Below are positions 1,990 to 10,581 of a stretch of 48,767 nt of DNA, piece by piece. The notes under the pieces are model-generated. The model made no database searches and was not told the DNA's origin. It saw only the letters and a list, made by a program, of their open reading frames with translations. The stretch comes from Acidobacteriaceae bacterium (GTDB taxonomy: Bacteria > Acidobacteriota > Terriglobia > Terriglobales > Acidobacteriaceae): contig JANXZS010000053.1 in NCBI GenBank assembly GCA_025355385.1, positions 1 through 48,767 on the forward strand, given 5' to 3'. Both the position numbers and the translations under genes were made by a program. The stretch's first letter is position 1. Each line of letters opens with the position of its first letter.

Positions 1990-3783
1990 TCAGAAGCTGA
2001 TGGCGTGGCGCGGGTACCATGTAAACTGGGCCGTCGTCGTGAAATTGTTCTGGGCCGTCGGGGAGAGAAACGGTGCCTTCCACCGTTCATACTGCACCCA
2101 GGCATGTACTTCGATATCCGGCCTGATGCGCTTTACAAGATCGAATGAAACATTATCCTGTGTAGTCCCAAGAGGCACGAAATCCTTCGGTGCCTTGGCC
2201 CGGCGATAGGAGATTTGCATAGATTCATTCGGGCTGAGGTGGTAGGTGAGCCATGCCTGTCCTCCCTTGGATTCGCGCCCGATCCAGTCGCCGAATAGGA
2301 AGCCCTTGTTGGTATATCCTTGGCGTTGCACATTCTCCCAATACAGAAATTTGCCACCGCTAGTGGACTGGCTTACGGGATCAGTGGACACACCCTCCAA
2401 GCGCAAATCCAGCTTGTGCATTCCCGGAAATTTCGCGAGATAGATTCCAGGTCTGACACCGGAACGTCGCGGTGCGCTGGGCGGACTCACATCGTCGTGG
2501 ACTTCGGAGTCGGTGTATAACGTCACCCTGTCTCGCAGATAAGGAAGCCTGTAGGTGAAGTCGAAACTTCCGAAGCGGGCTCCGGGATCATTACGAGAGT
2601 TTTTATCTGCGACGGTTACGTTCTGGAAGCTGAAGAAACTCTTCAGGAAGCTATGGATGGTGATGGGGACGTGTCCCTTGCCACCCCAGATAACGGTGCG
2701 CTCAAAACCAAATTCCAGATTGCGAGTGGGCTTGAAATTTATCTTCTCAGCATGCACCCAGGGAGCATTGGGATAGGTATGGCCCTTCAGGCTGCCCACG
2801 ATGAAGTCGTAGCGGAAGGGGCCGGTGAGCCTGGACAGCAATGGAACGTACACTGGCTCCGTGCGGTTGATGCGAAAGGCGTAAATATTCTCCGCGTTGT
2901 TGCTGTAGGCCATGCTGGCACCTTGGGCCGGGCCCATCCACTCATCGCTTTTGCCAAACGAGATTTCATTGTTCAGCACGCTGGCCGAGAGGTTCGCTTC
3001 AACGATGCGAAAGACGTTGGTGGCGGGGATTGGCCCGGTGGGCAGGGTAGCCTGTGTCGGTCCGAAGGGAACCTGGTCGATGCCGGAGAGTGTGCTGGAC
3101 ACAGGGATGGAATATCCGACTGCTGACGGTGCGTGCTGATATTCTCCGCGGAAGTACAGCGAGAATCGCCCTGCCGCTTCACTCGACGCACTGAATCCCG
3201 TGACGTCATTCAGACCTTCCTGCGTCATTCTGCCATAGTCGTTGATGTAGGTCTGACCAGCGTGAAAGCTGTCGTTTAGCGGCGTGCCGGAGACGCCGCG
3301 CAGCCGCGTATAAAATGAGTCGAATTGGATCCATCCGATCGTTTGATCCGTTGTCTCGGGATCCCGCATCAACTCGCGGCGAAGCGCTGCGTAGATTTCA
3401 CGAGCCTCTTCGTTGTTTGCACTGTCACTGAGCTTGGTGGCTGTCTCACGAAGGATGCTTCGCGTGCTTTCCCGAGTCCAGGGCCGCAGGCCAATGTAAG
3501 CCGAATCCGCATAACCGAGGGAGAAGAGACGAAGCACAGCCGGATAAATCCAGCTATCGACAGGGATGTATGGCGAACCCACCTGGTAGATGTCGGGAAG
3601 GGGTTCGACAGGCACGAGCGTCTGGCCTGATGACGGAATGGCTGGGGCCGGCGTTCCCGAAGGGCCTTGGGCCGCAGTGTCGATTACGGTCGAGGCATCG
3701 CCGACCTCGTGAGAGAGTGCCAACGCAGCCGGCAGAAAAAGGGTTCCTGCCAAAATGGGGATTGCAAGAGAAAGCAGCTTCAC
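1990..3783 (-). CDS. Wzi-like capsule assembly family protein, copy 1
   Basis: This is a predicted secreted outer-membrane beta-barrel of the capsule-assembly Wzi family. Known Wzi binds exported polysaccharide at the cell surface. A hydrophobic signal peptide (KLLSLAIPILAG...ALA) opens the protein. A Pro-rich linker follows, then the phrase GSPYIPVDSWIYPAVLRL, a conserved N-terminal helix region, and a long alternating aromatic barrel region. The last residues are ...YPRHAISF, ending in a terminal Phe as many outer-membrane barrels do. I prefer the GTG at 3783 because GAGG stands 5 bases upstream and it places the signal peptide at the extreme N terminus; an ATG at 3801 is the alternative. 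It lies immediately downstream of a second Wzi-like gene in the same orientation, with 129 bases between. The family call comes from the sequence pattern, and the polysaccharide substrate is unknown. Confidence 0.85.
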   Translation of the reverse strand: MKLLSLAIPILAGTLFLPAALALSHEVGDASTVIDTAAQGPSGTPAPAIPSSGQTLVPVEPLPDIYQVGSPYIPVDSWIYPAVLRLFSLGYADSAYIGLRPWTRESTRSILRETATKLSDSANNEEAREIYAALRRELMRDPETTDQTIGWIQFDSFYTRLRGVSGTPLNDSFHAGQTYINDYGRMTQEGLNDVTGFSASSEAAGRFSLYFRGEYQHAPSAVGYSIPVSSTLSGIDQVPFGPTQATLPTGPIPATNVFRIVEANLSASVLNNEISFGKSDEWMGPAQGASMAYSNNAENIYAFRINRTEPVYVPLLSRLTGPFRYDFIVGSLKGHTYPNAPWVHAEKINFKPTRNLEFGFERTVIWGGKGHVPITIHSFLKSFFSFQNVTVADKNSRNDPGARFGSFDFTYRLPYLRDRVTLYTDSEVHDDVSPPSAPRRSGVRPGIYLAKFPGMHKLDLRLEGVSTDPVSQSTSGGKFLYWENVQRQGYTNKGFLFGDWIGRESKGGQAWLTYHLSPNESMQISYRRAKAPKDFVPLGTTQDNVSFDLVKRIRPDIEVHAWVQYERWKAPFLSPTAQNNFTTTAQFTWYPRHAISF

Positions 3784-3912
3784 GCCTACCTCAGTATTCA
3801 AGAGCGCCGAAAGTCCGGAAAGTAAATTGCCCGACTACATTGCAAATACTGGTAAGGGAAAATAGCCTTGGCAATTGGGGTAAGATCCATCCTCGCGCCT
3901 ATACGAACCGCA

Positions 3913-5814
3913 CTAGCGAGCAGCCCCAATCTTGGGGAACCACGTGATCTGGAAGTTCCCTGACACATCGCTCTGTTTCTTCGCGTTCAGAAGAGGAATC
4001 CACCAGCGTTCATACTGCACGCTCGTATTCAACTCAACATTACGCGAGAGGCGCTTGACAAGCTTCACGCTGAAGTCTGTCTGCGTCCCTCCACCCACCC
4101 ACAAACGATTGTCCAGCTTGGAGTCGCGATACTGTGCCTGAACCTGTTCTTTAGGTGACATCCAGTAGGTCAGCCAGCCTTGGTATCCGGTGCTGTCGCG
4201 CCCTATCCAGTCGGCAACTAGAAAGCCCTTGTTTGTATATCCGTCTTTGTAGGCGTGGTTGGTATATGTAATGCCCGCGTCGCGCGCCTGGTTCGAATAT
4301 GGAGCTTCAAATCGAAAATCAAACTTCGGCGCGCCGGGAAGGTGCGAGATGTAGATGCCCGGCCGCCACGAGGAACGAAGGAAGTTGGCCAGCGGCGAAG
4401 GATCGTCGTCGCAGATGGAGTCGGTGTAGATGGTTACACTCTTCTGAAGTTTCGGAAGGCGCCAGCGGAAATCGAATCCACCGCGCCGGTCGCCGACGTC
4501 GTAGGGTTTTTGCCCTGAGTTCGCTTGATCGCCAACGCTGATAAAGCTTTTCCAGAAGTTTCCAAAGGTGAGTGCATGGTAACCCTTGCCGGCAAACTCG
4601 TTTGTCCGCGAGAAGCCAAACTCAAGATCCTTAGTGGGGTGAAGACTAATCTTATTGCCGAACACCCACGGGTTGTTCGGGCTGCGATGACCCTTGAAAT
4701 CTCCAAAGAAGTTATCCAATCGCACGGTTCCAAAGACCCGCGAAAAGAATGGAATATACAAAGGTTCGACCCGATCAAGACGCAACATGTATATTGGCTC
4801 GGCATTCGTGCTGTACAACATCGCCCCGCCTTGCGCCGGACCCCACCACATGTCGCTCTTTCCAACGGAAATTTCCGATCCCCATATGTGATAGGCAACA
4901 TAGCCGTTGAGAATGCGAAGGTTGTTGCGCGTGCCCACGGCGAAGGAGTTGGGTAAACCTATCTGGTCGTCAGCGGAGGAGGTTGTCGACTGCACGTTAA
5001 GCGACTCTGCAGCCAGGCCGGGAGCGTGCTGGTATTCACCGCGTAAGTACAAGGTGAACCTGCCAGCTTCGGCCCGGGCACTTCCGCCCAATCGCATGTT
5101 GAAGCCTTCGGCATAGGGTCTTCCGTAATCGTTGATGAGCGTCTGTCCGAAGTGGAAGCTATCGGTCAAGGGCTGGCCGCTGATTTGCTGAACGTTGCCG
5201 TAAACCGAGTCGAGACGAACGTTCAGCTGGGGGGCCCGGAGGTCGCGCAGTATTTCAAGCTGGAGCGAATTGAAGATCTCCCTTGCTGCAACGTCTTGCG
5301 GATTCTCATCCAGTTTTGCCTCCGTTTTCTCCAGCATGTGGGCCACGCTTAAACGCGTCCATGGGCGCTCGCCGAAGAACGCCGTATGGATATAGCCGAG
5401 GCCGGAGAGGCGGTCAAGGGCAGGGTACATCCAGCTATCCATTGGGACGTAGGTCGATCCCGCAGTGCTGATGTGACGAACGGGATCGATAGGCTTGTAC
5501 ACCTTGGGCAGTGGTGGATTCTCCTGCGGGGCGGCGGGTGTGTTCGGGGCAAGCGGAGGCATAGGCTTCTCCTGCTCCGCTGCGGGTGGGGGAGGGCTCG
5601 AGCCCTGGGGAAGCTTGGGATTGACTTCGACCTCGCCAGGATCGTCCGGTCTGGGAGTATTTTGCGTTTGACCCTGAGCCGGTGCAGGGGTGGTGTCTTG
5701 CTGAGAAGGGATCGCTACGGTTGAAGACGATTCGTTCTCCAGCGGCAGCGCCATAACAGCGGGAACGAAAATCCCCCACGCCACCACAAGACTTGCCAAA
5801 GAAAGAAATCTCAC
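3913..5814 (-). CDS. Wzi-like capsule assembly family protein, copy 2
   Basis: This 633-residue protein has a signal peptide (first ~22 residues, ending ...AVMA), a long Pro/Gln/Glu-rich low-complexity linker (about 25-105) and a Wzi-like barrel domain. It shares clear landmarks with its downstream neighbour: a PMDSWMYPAL element after the linker, and GYTNKGFLVADWIGR followed by a WLTY motif near the C terminus. The two genes therefore look like an old tandem duplication. By family it should sit in the outer membrane and bind or organise surface polysaccharide. No Wza/Wzb/Wzc or glycosyltransferase genes are in the window, so the partner polysaccharide is unknown. The linker is much longer than in copy 1 and might span periplasm or peptidoglycan (inference). 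Confidence 0.85.
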   Translation of the reverse strand: MRFLSLASLVVAWGIFVPAVMALPLENESSSTVAIPSQQDTTPAPAQGQTQNTPRPDDPGEVEVNPKLPQGSSPPPPAAEQEKPMPPLAPNTPAAPQENPPLPKVYKPIDPVRHISTAGSTYVPMDSWMYPALDRLSGLGYIHTAFFGERPWTRLSVAHMLEKTEAKLDENPQDVAAREIFNSLQLEILRDLRAPQLNVRLDSVYGNVQQISGQPLTDSFHFGQTLINDYGRPYAEGFNMRLGGSARAEAGRFTLYLRGEYQHAPGLAAESLNVQSTTSSADDQIGLPNSFAVGTRNNLRILNGYVAYHIWGSEISVGKSDMWWGPAQGGAMLYSTNAEPIYMLRLDRVEPLYIPFFSRVFGTVRLDNFFGDFKGHRSPNNPWVFGNKISLHPTKDLEFGFSRTNEFAGKGYHALTFGNFWKSFISVGDQANSGQKPYDVGDRRGGFDFRWRLPKLQKSVTIYTDSICDDDPSPLANFLRSSWRPGIYISHLPGAPKFDFRFEAPYSNQARDAGITYTNHAYKDGYTNKGFLVADWIGRDSTGYQGWLTYWMSPKEQVQAQYRDSKLDNRLWVGGGTQTDFSVKLVKRLSRNVELNTSVQYERWWIPLLNAKKQSDVSGNFQITWFPKIGAAR

Positions 5815-6166
5815 TCACACCTCAAGACTGGTTCCTTCTGTTTACGCCTGCCGCGATGCAGGGCGGTTTCAGCAACTCGAAGTTAATTGTCGCAGACAGA
5901 AACGTTCGGAGGCTATGCCACGCTTACATCAACCTACTGAAAGCGCACTCCGGGGTCAACCATGGGAGGGCATGAGGCCGGCATGAGGCCCGCCTGCTAC
6001 GCGGACATCAATCCAGATAAATTGCACTGCCGTGAACAGTGTCAAGAGGCCAGTCCGTAAAGTTTTAAGTCGGACAGCAGGTCGCGGACTTGCTTCGCAG
6101 TGGCCGCGGGGGTCTCAAATGCGCGTAAGGCGTGGGTACGACTCAATTTGCGGATGGAGTAAAAAG
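5815..6166. other. 352-base intergenic region upstream of the wzi-like pair
   Basis: There is no convincing gene on either strand. The region must hold the promoter of the leftward wzi-like genes and the 3' end of the E1-alpha-like gene. A short direct repeat of GCATGAGGCC occurs twice about 11 bases apart near 5970-5990. I see no clear terminator or promoter boxes. Confidence 0.4.
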
Positions 6167-7045
6167 TCAACGCTCATGCAAGTCTACCTGGAAATCACCG
6201 AGGATCTTTTGCTTCCACTCGCTGGTGAAAAGACCCTTGCGGGTAAGGTAGTCCTCCATCAGGTTCAGAGGATCGCCGTGGGAGAAAAAGGTATTGCACC
6301 TGATCAGCGTCGGTCCCCCGCCTTGACGAGCCCGTGTAATAGCCTCAAACGCGACTCGATAAACGGCTACTACGTCGTTGCCGTCAACGGGAATGCTGGG
6401 AAATCCGTAAGCATCCGCTCCGAGACCGTTCCGCTGGGATTTTGTGTTGGCTGGCTCGGTCGGGAGATTGTGCTGCGCCACCAAAAGCATTGGAAGATGG
6501 TGGCGGCCGGCGAATTCAAGAGCCTTTTCCCAGGAGTTGAGCGATGTGGATCTCTCTCCAGAAAAGGCGACGACAATGTCGCTGCGGTTCTGTTTCTGAT
6601 TTGCGAGGGCAGCGTCGGTAGCGCTCTTCCACAGGCGGGAAGAAGCGGCAGGCGGTGCCACGCCGTTCAGTGATGAAGCATTTCCATTGACTTGCAACGA
6701 GGGGCGGCGCTCATCCGGATTGACTGACCGTCCGAGGAGATACGACAGGATTGTTCCAAGCGGAACGCCCTCGATAAAGCTGGTGGTAACGTCCCAATGC
6801 GAGGAGACGATGGTATCGCCCGGGCCCAGATCGATAGCCACGCCGACTCTGGTGGCTTCCTGTCCGACGGTGGAGTGATGGTTGCCGGGGAACTTGCCCT
6901 GTTTCAAGATCAGGCGAATGTGCTCGTCGAGTGCCCGGCATTTAAGCATCGTGGTGTACATCTGCTTCAGCTTTTCGTTGTTGATCAGCGAGAAGCCGTT
7001 TTGCGCCGCCGCCGTGGCAGCCTTTTCCTTGACCTTGGTTGCCAT
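6167..7045 (-). CDS. divergent E1-alpha-like (2-oxoacid dehydrogenase) protein with degraded TPP motif
   Basis: This 292-residue protein resembles the alpha subunit of thiamine-diphosphate-dependent pyruvate or branched-chain 2-oxoacid dehydrogenases. Recognisable family blocks are the N-terminal LKQMYTTMLKCRALDE helix, GNHHSTVGQEATRVGVA (55-70), and VDGNDVVAVY (220-229) followed by ARQGGGPTLI. The cofactor motif, normally GDGA...NN, reads SGER (162-165) and HN (192-193). The GGSMH loop and the usual phosphorylation-loop HS are also not evident. The protein is shorter than typical E1-alpha (about 320-400). No E1-beta, E2 or E3 gene is nearby. I start at the ATG at 7043-7045; the frame stays open upstream into argJ, but that extension is unlike the family. 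It may be a non-catalytic paralogue or have changed function. It reads through without a frameshift. Confidence 0.75.
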   Translation of the reverse strand: MATKVKEKAATAAAQNGFSLINNEKLKQMYTTMLKCRALDEHIRLILKQGKFPGNHHSTVGQEATRVGVAIDLGPGDTIVSSHWDVTTSFIEGVPLGTILSYLLGRSVNPDERRPSLQVNGNASSLNGVAPPAASSRLWKSATDAALANQKQNRSDIVVAFSGERSTSLNSWEKALEFAGRHHLPMLLVAQHNLPTEPANTKSQRNGLGADAYGFPSIPVDGNDVVAVYRVAFEAITRARQGGGPTLIRCNTFFSHGDPLNLMEDYLTRKGLFTSEWKQKILGDFQVDLHER

Positions 7046-7289: not shown

Positions 7290-8513
7290 CTACGTAGAAT
7301 AGTCCGCATTGATGCGGACATACTCGGTCGTGAGGTCGGTCGTCCAGAAGCGGCAGCTCCCCGTGCCCACGCCAAGCGACATGCGTATCCGGTATTCGCG
7401 CTGCTTTAGATATTCGTGCGCCTTCGCCTCGTCGTAAAAAGGCGAGCGCTCACCATTGCGGCAGATCTCCAACTCGCCGAACCACAGGTTGATTTTGGCC
7501 GGATCAATTGCAACTCCCGAAGCTCCAGTGGCCGAGAGCAGGCGCCCCCAGTTGGGATCACATCCTGCCCAGGCCGTCTTGACGAGTGGGGAGTGAGCAA
7601 TGGCTTTGGCTACTTTAATTGCGTCTGCGTCGCTGGGGGCCCCCTCAATTTCAAGCTCCACCACGTGCGTGATGCCTTCGCCATCGGCAACGATTTGCTT
7701 TGCCAGCGAGGTGCAGACCTGCGTCAGCGCCTGCTGGAACGCTGGGGCGGACGCGGAGTCGATGCCAGCCCCGCTGGAGCCTGAGGCCAGCAGCAGCACC
7801 GTGTCGTTGGTGGACGTGTCACCATCCACCGAGATGCGGTTGAAGCTGACATTCACAGCCGATTGCAGGAAGCCAAGGAGGGCGGCAGGCTCCACCTGTG
7901 CGTCAGTCAGCACATACACCAGCATGGTGGCGTGTGGAACGAGTTGCGGATGGATCATGCCGGAGCCTTTGCCGACCGCAAGGATGCGGACTGTCTTGCC
8001 CGCAATTTCCAGGGTTGTCGCGGAGACTTTCTCGCGGGTATCTGTCGTCATGATCGCAAGCGCTAGTTGGTACAGGTGTTCGGCGCTGCGACCGAGGCTG
8101 GATTGCAATTGTGGCAGGGCCGCGATCAGCTTTTCTGCTGGTAGTGGCACTCCGATGATGCCGGTTGAGGCTGGGAAGACCTCATACTCGTGGCAGCCGA
8201 AGGTCGCGGCCACCGCTCCGCATACACGCCTGGCTGCTGCCAATCCCGCTTCTCCAGTCGCGCAATTGGCGTTGCCCGCGTTGATCGCGACGACGCGCAC
8301 ATGGCCAGCCGTGCGGCTAAGGTGGATCTTATCCACGATCAGCGGAGCAGCGATAATTCTGTTGGCCGTGAACATGGCCGCCGCGCTGGTGCCTTTGTCG
8401 GCCACGATGCCGGCAAAATCCGTACGACCGCTGGCCTTGAGGCCGGCCCTCGCAGCAGAGAATAGAAATCCGCCGGGTATGGCGTCATCAGAGAGAAAAG
8501 GTATCGAATTCAT
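7290..8513 (-). CDS. argJ: bifunctional ornithine acetyltransferase / N-acetylglutamate synthase
   Basis: ArgJ transfers the acetyl group from N-acetylornithine to glutamate in the cyclic arginine pathway, and bifunctional forms also use acetyl-CoA. The 407-residue precursor has the family length. It contains the autocleavage site HATML with the nucleophilic Thr196, the oxyanion-type STGIIGVPL segment near 116-124, and the GCDPNWGR motif near the C terminus. The chain should self-cleave before Thr196 into alpha and beta chains. An AAAGG sequence 6 bases before the ATG supports the start. The gene is divergent from the ABC ATPase with a very short spacer. No other arg biosynthesis gene is adjacent, though arginine feeds the pdaD/agu genes found further on. 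Family identity is secure; whether it is mono- or bifunctional is inferred. Confidence 0.95.
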   Translation of the reverse strand: MNSIPFLSDDAIPGGFLFSAARAGLKASGRTDFAGIVADKGTSAAAMFTANRIIAAPLIVDKIHLSRTAGHVRVVAINAGNANCATGEAGLAAARRVCGAVAATFGCHEYEVFPASTGIIGVPLPAEKLIAALPQLQSSLGRSAEHLYQLALAIMTTDTREKVSATTLEIAGKTVRILAVGKGSGMIHPQLVPHATMLVYVLTDAQVEPAALLGFLQSAVNVSFNRISVDGDTSTNDTVLLLASGSSGAGIDSASAPAFQQALTQVCTSLAKQIVADGEGITHVVELEIEGAPSDADAIKVAKAIAHSPLVKTAWAGCDPNWGRLLSATGASGVAIDPAKINLWFGELEICRNGERSPFYDEAKAHEYLKQREYRIRMSLGVGTGSCRFWTTDLTTEYVRINADYST

Positions 8514-9361: not shown

Positions 9362-9810
9362 GAAATCGAATCGTACGGAGGCTGCTGCTGGCGGTGCAAC
9401 GAACAGTTTTAGTCCGGCCAAAAGAGCCTCTTGACGAAGGTCCAGTCGGCAATTAGTCTGCAGCTACACGGGAAAGGAGGATGGTCCAGCCTATGAAGAT
9501 CGAACCAAGTTGTAGCAGTATTCGACGTGAGGTGACTGAGGCTTAGGGCTCCGCGCTCTAGACCTGGCGAAACTGCAATGAACTCGCCGAGGCCCACTTA
9601 CAATCTCTGAGGTTTTCAGGATTGCAGGCGCGGATGCCTCAGGTCAAACTCAACAGCCCACCGGTGAGCAGGGCTCGCTGCCAGAGATGGCGGCGGGCCC
9701 GTCACTTTTTGGAAGTCATGCCCTACGGCGTTGCAGCAGTCTGCAAGAAAATTGTGAGCGCGCATGAGTCAAACCGTCACACTCCGCTCTTACCGCCTTA
9801 CAATAGTGAG
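9362..9810. other. 449-base gap upstream of thiG
   Basis: I see no convincing gene here. The thiG frame stays open leftward to 9622, but the encoded extension is Arg-rich and unlike ThiG. I looked for a thiamine-pyrophosphate riboswitch (CUGAGA and the conserved second stem) and for a thiS gene ending in Gly-Gly, and found neither. A GGAAAGGAGGATGG stretch near 9471 resembles a ribosome site but leads to no clear ORF. Confidence 0.4.
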
Positions 9811-10581
9811 ATGGAACCGCTCGTTATCGCAGGAAAAGCCTTTCAGTCGCGTTTGATCGTTGGAACCGGAAAGTACAAGGATGGCCCCGAGACGCAGGCA
9901 GCCATCGAGGCCTCCGGAGCCGAGATGGTTACAGTGGCCGTGCGCCGCGTCAACCTGGATCGCTCCAAGGAATCACTGCTGGACTACATCGATACCAAAC
10001 GCTATTTTTTACTGCCTAACACAGCCGGTTGTTATACCGCCGACGAGGCGATCCGCGCTGCGCGGCTGGGCAGAGAAGTTGGCTTGTCGGACTGGGTAAA
10101 GATCGAGGTCATCGGCGATCAGGCTACGCTCTATCCCGATGTACAGGCAACCCTTGAAGCGACTCGAGTTTTAGTAAAAGAAGGCTTTACAGTTCTTCCG
10201 TATACAACGGACGACATTGTGTTTGCCAAGCGCCTTATTGATGCCGGGGCAGCCGCGGTGATGCCCCTTGGAGCGCCCATTGGCAGCGGCATGGGCATAC
10301 AGAATTCGGCTACGCTGCGCATTCTTCGTGAGCTGATCACCGAGGTTCCGCTGATCGTCGATGCTGGGGTGGGGACAGCCTCTGACGCCGCGTTTGCGAT
10401 GGAGCTGGGCGCGGATGCGGTCCTTATGAACTCCGGGATTGCAAACGCGGCCAAGCCGATCCTGATGGCTGAGGCGATGATGCATGGGGTGATCGCCGGG
10501 CGCCAGGCATACCTGGCAGGTCGTATGCCACGCAAGCTGTACGCCACGGCAAGCTCGCCGCTCGAGGGCGTTTCGAAGTAG
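9811..10581 (+). CDS. thiG: thiazole synthase
   Basis: ThiG forms the thiazole phosphate ring of thiamine from deoxyxylulose 5-phosphate, dehydroglycine and the sulfur of ThiS-thiocarboxylate. The 256-residue TIM-barrel protein starts with the typical [19 protein letters not shown]. It carries the Schiff-base Lys97 in DWVKIEV and the phosphate-binding [13 protein letters not shown] and [11 protein letters not shown] segments. I chose the ATG at 9811 because family homology begins there; the ribosome site is weak. The gene stands alone: no thiS, thiF, thiH/O, thiC or thiE is in the window. Function is secure. Regulation is not visible, because the expected riboswitch is absent from the upstream gap. 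Confidence 0.95.

Follow-up and report, generated by a model that had tools for sequence, protein, structure and literature searches.

The gene studied here lies in a window of 48,767 nucleotides (the whole stretch of DNA that was analysed, from an Acidobacteriaceae bacterium) and very probably encodes a protein that is selected for a non-catalytic function. On balance we favour its being a conserved pseudoenzyme, one that descends from the E1-alpha of a heteromeric dehydrogenase of the pyruvate type. It appears that soil acidobacteria keep an inactive protein under selection, and the protein therefore probably has a different, non-catalytic job.

The original prediction was of a recognisable member of the E1-alpha family that reads cleanly without a frameshift, and both points stand. 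The frame is open over its full length and the product matches the Pfam family E1_dh (PF00676) at 4e-26 and 92.1 bits against a cut-off of 22, which amounts to domain homology. The closest solved chains are E1-alpha subunits, the best being Thermus E1-alpha 1um9_A (2.4e-25). The NCBIfam equivalog models TIGR03181/TIGR03182 give the window protein 137.3 bits against a cut-off of 411.35; this is a weak test, the intact relative L044 itself reaching only 290.8. The start of the protein, MATKVKE, is common to intact orthologues, whose identity to the window protein reaches 53% (L070). Fold, descent and the GQEA and VDGND..RAR..GPTLI blocks are held in common with heteromeric pyruvate dehydrogenase E1 alpha (TIGR03181/TIGR03182, PF00676), but the window protein has neither the G[DE]G..NN motif, the GHS loop, the C-terminal tail nor an adjacent E1-beta. 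Modelling of the fold had been proposed as a check. With 99 degenerate rows as input, AlphaFold predicts that the E1-alpha fold is retained (pLDDT 84.5), and the model matches E1-alpha 1w88_G with Z 28.2 and rmsd 2.5 over 254 aligned residues. The weakest region of the model, residues 116 to 132, is one of the lost regions, and pLDDT is low in parts of the former pocket.

The changes are found in the cofactor site (Table 1). The GDGA...NN motif had been said to read SGER...HN, with other cofactor elements missing, and alignment with intact relatives agrees: GER and HN occupy the two motif positions, the Arg of SHRD (presumably, by analogy, a diphosphate contact) has become Trp-84, and the GHS loop and C-terminal tail are absent. 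The replacements themselves are not shared. The question had been raised whether SGER/HN is conserved in orthologues; it is not, since the copy in the same genus has GKG/QD at these positions and further replacements are observed in other degenerate loci. SGER/HN was therefore rejected as a new functional motif. We take the lost parts (the pocket, the 106 to 135 region, the GHS loop and the NN loop) to form the alpha/beta active site in E1 structures. Because of this, we infer by analogy that the protein, hereafter pseudo-E1-alpha, would no longer bind ThDP and would no longer pair with E1-beta.

Table 1. Features of the pseudo-E1-alpha gene and its surroundings (window positions; residues are those of the window protein)
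Feature	Position	Strand	Remarks
E1-alpha-derived pseudoenzyme gene (favoured reading)	6167..7045	−	292 aa plus stop; ATG at 7045
argJ, upstream neighbour	7290..8513	−	also in intact argJ-E1alpha-E1beta loci
Wzi-like (Caps_assemb_Wzi) gene, downstream neighbour	3913..5814	−	family match
Intergenic stretch, place of E1-beta in intact orthologues	5815..6166		no E1-beta remnant found
GER instead of G-D/E-G, residues 163-165	6551..6559	−	alignment with intact relatives
HN instead of NN, residues 192-193	6467..6472	−	alignment with intact relatives
Trp-84 at Arg of SHRD in intact orthologues	6794..6796	−	alignment
Deletion point of GHS (phosphorylation-type) loop, residues 253-258	6272..6289	−	alignment
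Retained block around VDGNDVVAVYRVAFEAITRARQGGGPTLI, residues 217-252	6290..6397	−	best-conserved part of degenerate family; contains Asp-224, Arg-230, Glu-234 and Arg-240

A search for related loci with the window protein alone gave no match; with alignment A5 it returned 80 named loci, and the nine records of these with a lineage belong to Terriglobales, Acidobacteriaceae and Korobacteraceae. Relatives were sought in 398 genomes of the same bacterial family with a profile derived from 14 degenerate proteins. The 140 loci that were classified comprise those of the initial search and the best-ranked profile matches, 11 listed and further weaker, unlisted matches being left out; L040, an ordinary paralogue, was removed before alignment. 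Defining as intact those copies in which G[DE]G, NN and GHS are all present, 37 of the 140 loci in this bacterial family are intact and 103 are degenerate, the latter spanning 22 genus-level groups. The alignment-free pattern G[DE]G..NN is found in 37/37 intact and 0/103 degenerate copies. The mean length falls from 363 aa in the intact to 297 aa in the degenerate class, and all 103 degenerate loci retain an open frame (249 to 360 aa). Orthologues that keep GDG and NN had been named as grounds for suspecting an artefact or local decay. Such orthologues do exist (the 37 intact loci), but the suspicion is not sustained, the degenerate form recurring throughout the 22 groups. Sequencing error is also unlikely because the copy in a genome of the same genus, G001 (10 contigs), is degenerate too; with this copy and the 103 degenerate loci in hand, local change and sequencing error were rejected. 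We note that in 24 of the 37 intact E1-alpha genes GDG is itself replaced by GEG, with Glu for the usual metal-binding Asp (e.g. L044, L046 and L070). E1-beta adjoins 23 of these 24 genes, and the separate E1-alphas L020, L031 and L042 are likewise of the GEG type.

The two classes are separated by their partner gene. Of the 37 intact loci, 36 have E1-beta immediately downstream in the same orientation, and a contig edge interrupts the remaining one. The 103 degenerate loci all lack it there; in 10 of them a nearby contig edge leaves less than 1.5 kb behind the gene. The presence of E1-beta splits intact from degenerate copies at every readable locus. A tblastn search of as much as 2.5 kb behind the degenerate genes gave no trace of E1-beta, and 102 of the 103 offered more than 100 bases to search. 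The original observation that no E1-beta or E2 partner is near also holds, as tblastn of the window with eight E1-beta proteins, one AceE and the E2 of the genome gave no match. The other E1s of this genome are an E1-alpha followed by E1-beta on contig C28 and a fused 728-aa E1 on C24; its two strong E1-beta matches lie beside the former and inside the latter, and two weak ones are on C249 and C111. There is one E2 match (PF00198), on C27. The aceE gene of the genome (L287, G000:C312) stands alone on a contig other than that of the window, and no E2 is apparent beside it among the long neighbouring frames, as judged by reading frames.

Seven loci from outside the family, among 30 retrieved, all have GDG..NN, YGHS and E1-beta, and on this account intactness appears to be the ancestral state. 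Three genomes (G016, G112 and G185) have a degenerate copy as well as an intact E1-alpha/beta pair. In most genomes of groups g7 and g80 the profile matches only at the strength of ordinary paralogues; the degenerate gene therefore seems dispensable in many genomes, including most of g7 and g80. Near-alike intact E1-alpha genes with E1-beta are seen in different genera (L137 of G185 and L138 of G112; L139 of G372 and L140 of G115), a likeness of sequence that may reflect horizontal transfer.

Degenerate and intact genes occupy the same kinds of site. The argJ-type site, to which the window belongs, accounts for 69 degenerate and 13 intact loci and the TlyA/NAD-kinase site for 18 and 10, respectively; neither neighbour lies in the retrieved stretch at 16 degenerate and 14 intact loci. 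Intact orthologues with E1-beta (e.g. L045, L046, L044 and L070) share with the window gene an argJ or TlyA/NAD-kinase neighbour but differ in keeping the motif, in their greater mean length and in having E1-beta −6 to 257 bp downstream. A Wzi-like gene neighbours the degenerate gene in 68 of the 103 loci, a count made with a flank of only about 1.5 kb at 17 of all loci (15 intact and 2 early-decay), where a more distant wzi or aceE would escape. The window has two tandem Wzi-like (capsule assembly) genes, at 1990-3801 and 3913-5814, and the same pair is present in G001. A thiG-like thiazole synthase gene (9622-10581) is located near argJ and pseudo-E1-alpha; its cluster, c12, is also near several degenerate loci.

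On a quick tree, three changes between the intact and degenerate states are required. The AU test does not reject a tree that holds the 103 degenerate rows in one group (p-AU 0.14). It does reject a group made up of the g78 rows and 13 main-group rows (p-AU 0.002), and for group B2 with the same rows the result is borderline (p-AU 0.067); in both comparisons the 13 rows were hand-picked and the g78 and B2 groups were named after the tree had been seen. Because the g78 rows are rejected from this main-group subset, the data support no fewer than two separate decays. Genus g78 contains both states: L085, L090, L141 and L145 have decayed and are without E1-beta, and L080, L081, L082 and L084 are intact E1-alpha/beta pairs. 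The four degenerate rows are 59-79% identical to intact copies of their own genus. The intact and recently decayed loci of g78 thereby form a natural before-and-after series.

The rate of substitution indicates that the degenerate genes are constrained. Of 18 degenerate pairs, 17 had a dN/dS of 0.09-0.54 by the NG86 method and one was saturated, giving no value. For the window gene and its counterpart in G001 the ratio is 0.33 (bootstrap 0.23-0.45), with dS at 1.03, near the value of 1 where the method becomes crude. Intact E1-alpha genes gave 0.02-0.05 in four pairs; within the 12 closest pairs of another computation they spanned 0.02-0.33. Of the 14 pairs that gave a ratio for both genes, 13 have a higher one for the degenerate gene than for argJ; pseudo-E1-alpha appears less constrained than argJ, yet clearly constrained. 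Selection on the gene had been predicted and is indeed observed; dN/dS near 1, which would have pointed to a decaying gene, was seen neither for the window pair nor for any of the 12 bootstrapped pairs (upper bounds at most 0.84). Residues Asp-77, Asp-224, Arg-230, Glu-234 and Arg-240 are invariant in the 99 degenerate sequences of alignment A3, that is, the 103 rows less four early-decay g78 rows.

These data bear on the idea of a slow pseudogene, in which a functionless alpha subunit drifts after loss of E1-beta and the frames are open only through the recency of decay. Some observations do lean this way: the shortening of the protein (to 249 aa at the extreme), pocket replacements that vary by lineage, and raised dN/dS in L085/L090 (0.54), an early-decay pair, and in L130/L131 (0.58, a separate computation). 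We nevertheless consider drift improbable. Every frame is open across 22 genus-level groups with long branches, all 12 bootstrapped ratios lie below 1 (resampling took only L085/L090 as far as 1, and then 6 times in 1000), and five charged residues are invariant. Moreover Arg-230 and Val-231 are better conserved in the degenerate than in the intact set, with weighted frequencies of 1.00 and 0.97 vs 0.71 and 0.59. An enzyme with an altered cofactor, with another ligand now in the site, was one of the non-canonical roles that the original prediction had in mind. Of that prediction the selected role has survived, in the form of purifying selection on a protein that has lost its ThDP motif, but the altered cofactor has not. 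The predicted retention of a pocket-bearing fold would suit such an enzyme; against it there is no common replacement motif (the window protein has GER/HN, its genus-mate GKG/QD and other loci many different ones) and pLDDT is low in parts of the former pocket, and we regard it as very improbable.

Two further explanations would keep the protein non-catalytic. Pseudo-E1-alpha could be a regulatory alpha subunit, dominant-negative or stabilising, that still pairs with an E1-beta encoded elsewhere, for example that of the C28 pair. The genome does offer the C28 pair as well as the fused E1, and the alpha fold is retained in the model, but the degenerate genes have no adjoining E1-beta and the lost positions cluster in the pocket and in loops that, in E1 structures, meet E1-beta; pairing of this sort seems to us unlikely. 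Alternatively the ancestral E1-alpha may have had a second, non-catalytic role which alone survived the loss of E1-beta. Decay with retention on at least two occasions (the g78 rows set against the 13 main-group rows) would be in keeping with this, as would the basic character of the 91 main-group proteins (mean pI 9.4, against 7.0 for the intact ones). In group B2, however, the shift in pI is smaller (8.3), and the four g78 proteins do not show it (6.2); we give this second explanation little credence too. The absence of the shift in g78 was also the reason for dropping basic pI as a sign of nucleic-acid binding.

A frequent neighbour of the degenerate gene is aceE, which encodes the homodimeric pyruvate dehydrogenase E1 AceE (TIGR00759). 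A same-strand aceE adjoins the gene at 39/103 degenerate and 0/37 intact loci, and such cases occur at both argJ and TlyA/NAD-kinase sites. In 34 loci, all those of genus g34, aceE is upstream, which may represent a single inherited event. In five it is downstream and takes the place of E1-beta (L059 being counted here by coordinates), three of these being at the TlyA site. Six changes in aceE adjacency are needed on the tree. Edaphobacter-type loci have a full 891-aa AceE between argJ and the degenerate gene (sequence of L104; TIGR00759, 1287 bits). AceE is likely to belong to the same pathway as pseudo-E1-alpha but, unlike it, is an enzyme in its own right. The retrieved stretch shows no adjacent aceE at 64 of the 103 degenerate loci, and the locus in the window is one of these. 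Genus g9 contributes 27 of the 103 degenerate loci, yet among its genomes only G397 has an aceE match, so the idea that aceE is always needed was rejected. Genome-wide presence of aceE as a mark of the degenerate state was likewise rejected, as the gene is present in 293 of the 398 genomes, at least 13 of them with an intact locus (e.g. G102, G104, G115 and G137). A passage in PMC5462960 notes aceE in acidobacteria without dxs; the passage is not about the degenerate E1-alpha gene.

We return to the reading of the gene as a conserved, non-catalytic pseudoenzyme. The ancestor would have been an E1-alpha with E1-beta directly behind it. At every locus where E1-beta is absent the ThDP/Mg motif has decayed, and purifying selection still acts on the E1-alpha fold, as predicted, and on a block of charged helix and strand. 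Pseudo-E1-alpha would then work by contacting other proteins, whether as a scaffold or as a regulatory subunit. Its role, in protein binding, regulation or assembly, would be connected with pyruvate oxidation; AceE is the first candidate for a partner and, in Edaphobacter-type genomes, the likeliest one. AceE or pyruvate oxidation is a possible target, though we hold this with less than even confidence. More speculative is the full scheme, in which E1-alpha pseudoenzymes arose repeatedly upon loss of E1-beta and came to serve AceE as an accessory subunit, for regulation or assembly. Dead paralogues that regulate enzymes have precedents in print, in passages of PMC5201418 and PMC5106787. In regulatory pseudoenzymes of this kind, such as the trypanosome prozyme, a dead paralogue is kept and activates or scaffolds its partner; there the active partner is known, whereas for pseudo-E1-alpha AceE is a candidate. 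A search of open-access literature, in which most subscription journals are not represented, turned up no account of such an E1-alpha pseudoenzyme.

The gene would thus be a pseudoenzyme of central metabolism in bacteria with a clear before and after. The partner gene accompanies every readable intact copy, the pocket is lost wherever the partner is absent, and the dead protein is retained, so that early and late stages of pseudoenzyme evolution may be seen side by side. Homologues of ‘pyruvate dehydrogenase E1 alpha’ in such genomes may lack the capacity for that chemistry. If the protein does prove to be an accessory of AceE, an inactive remnant of one pyruvate dehydrogenase would be serving its successor.
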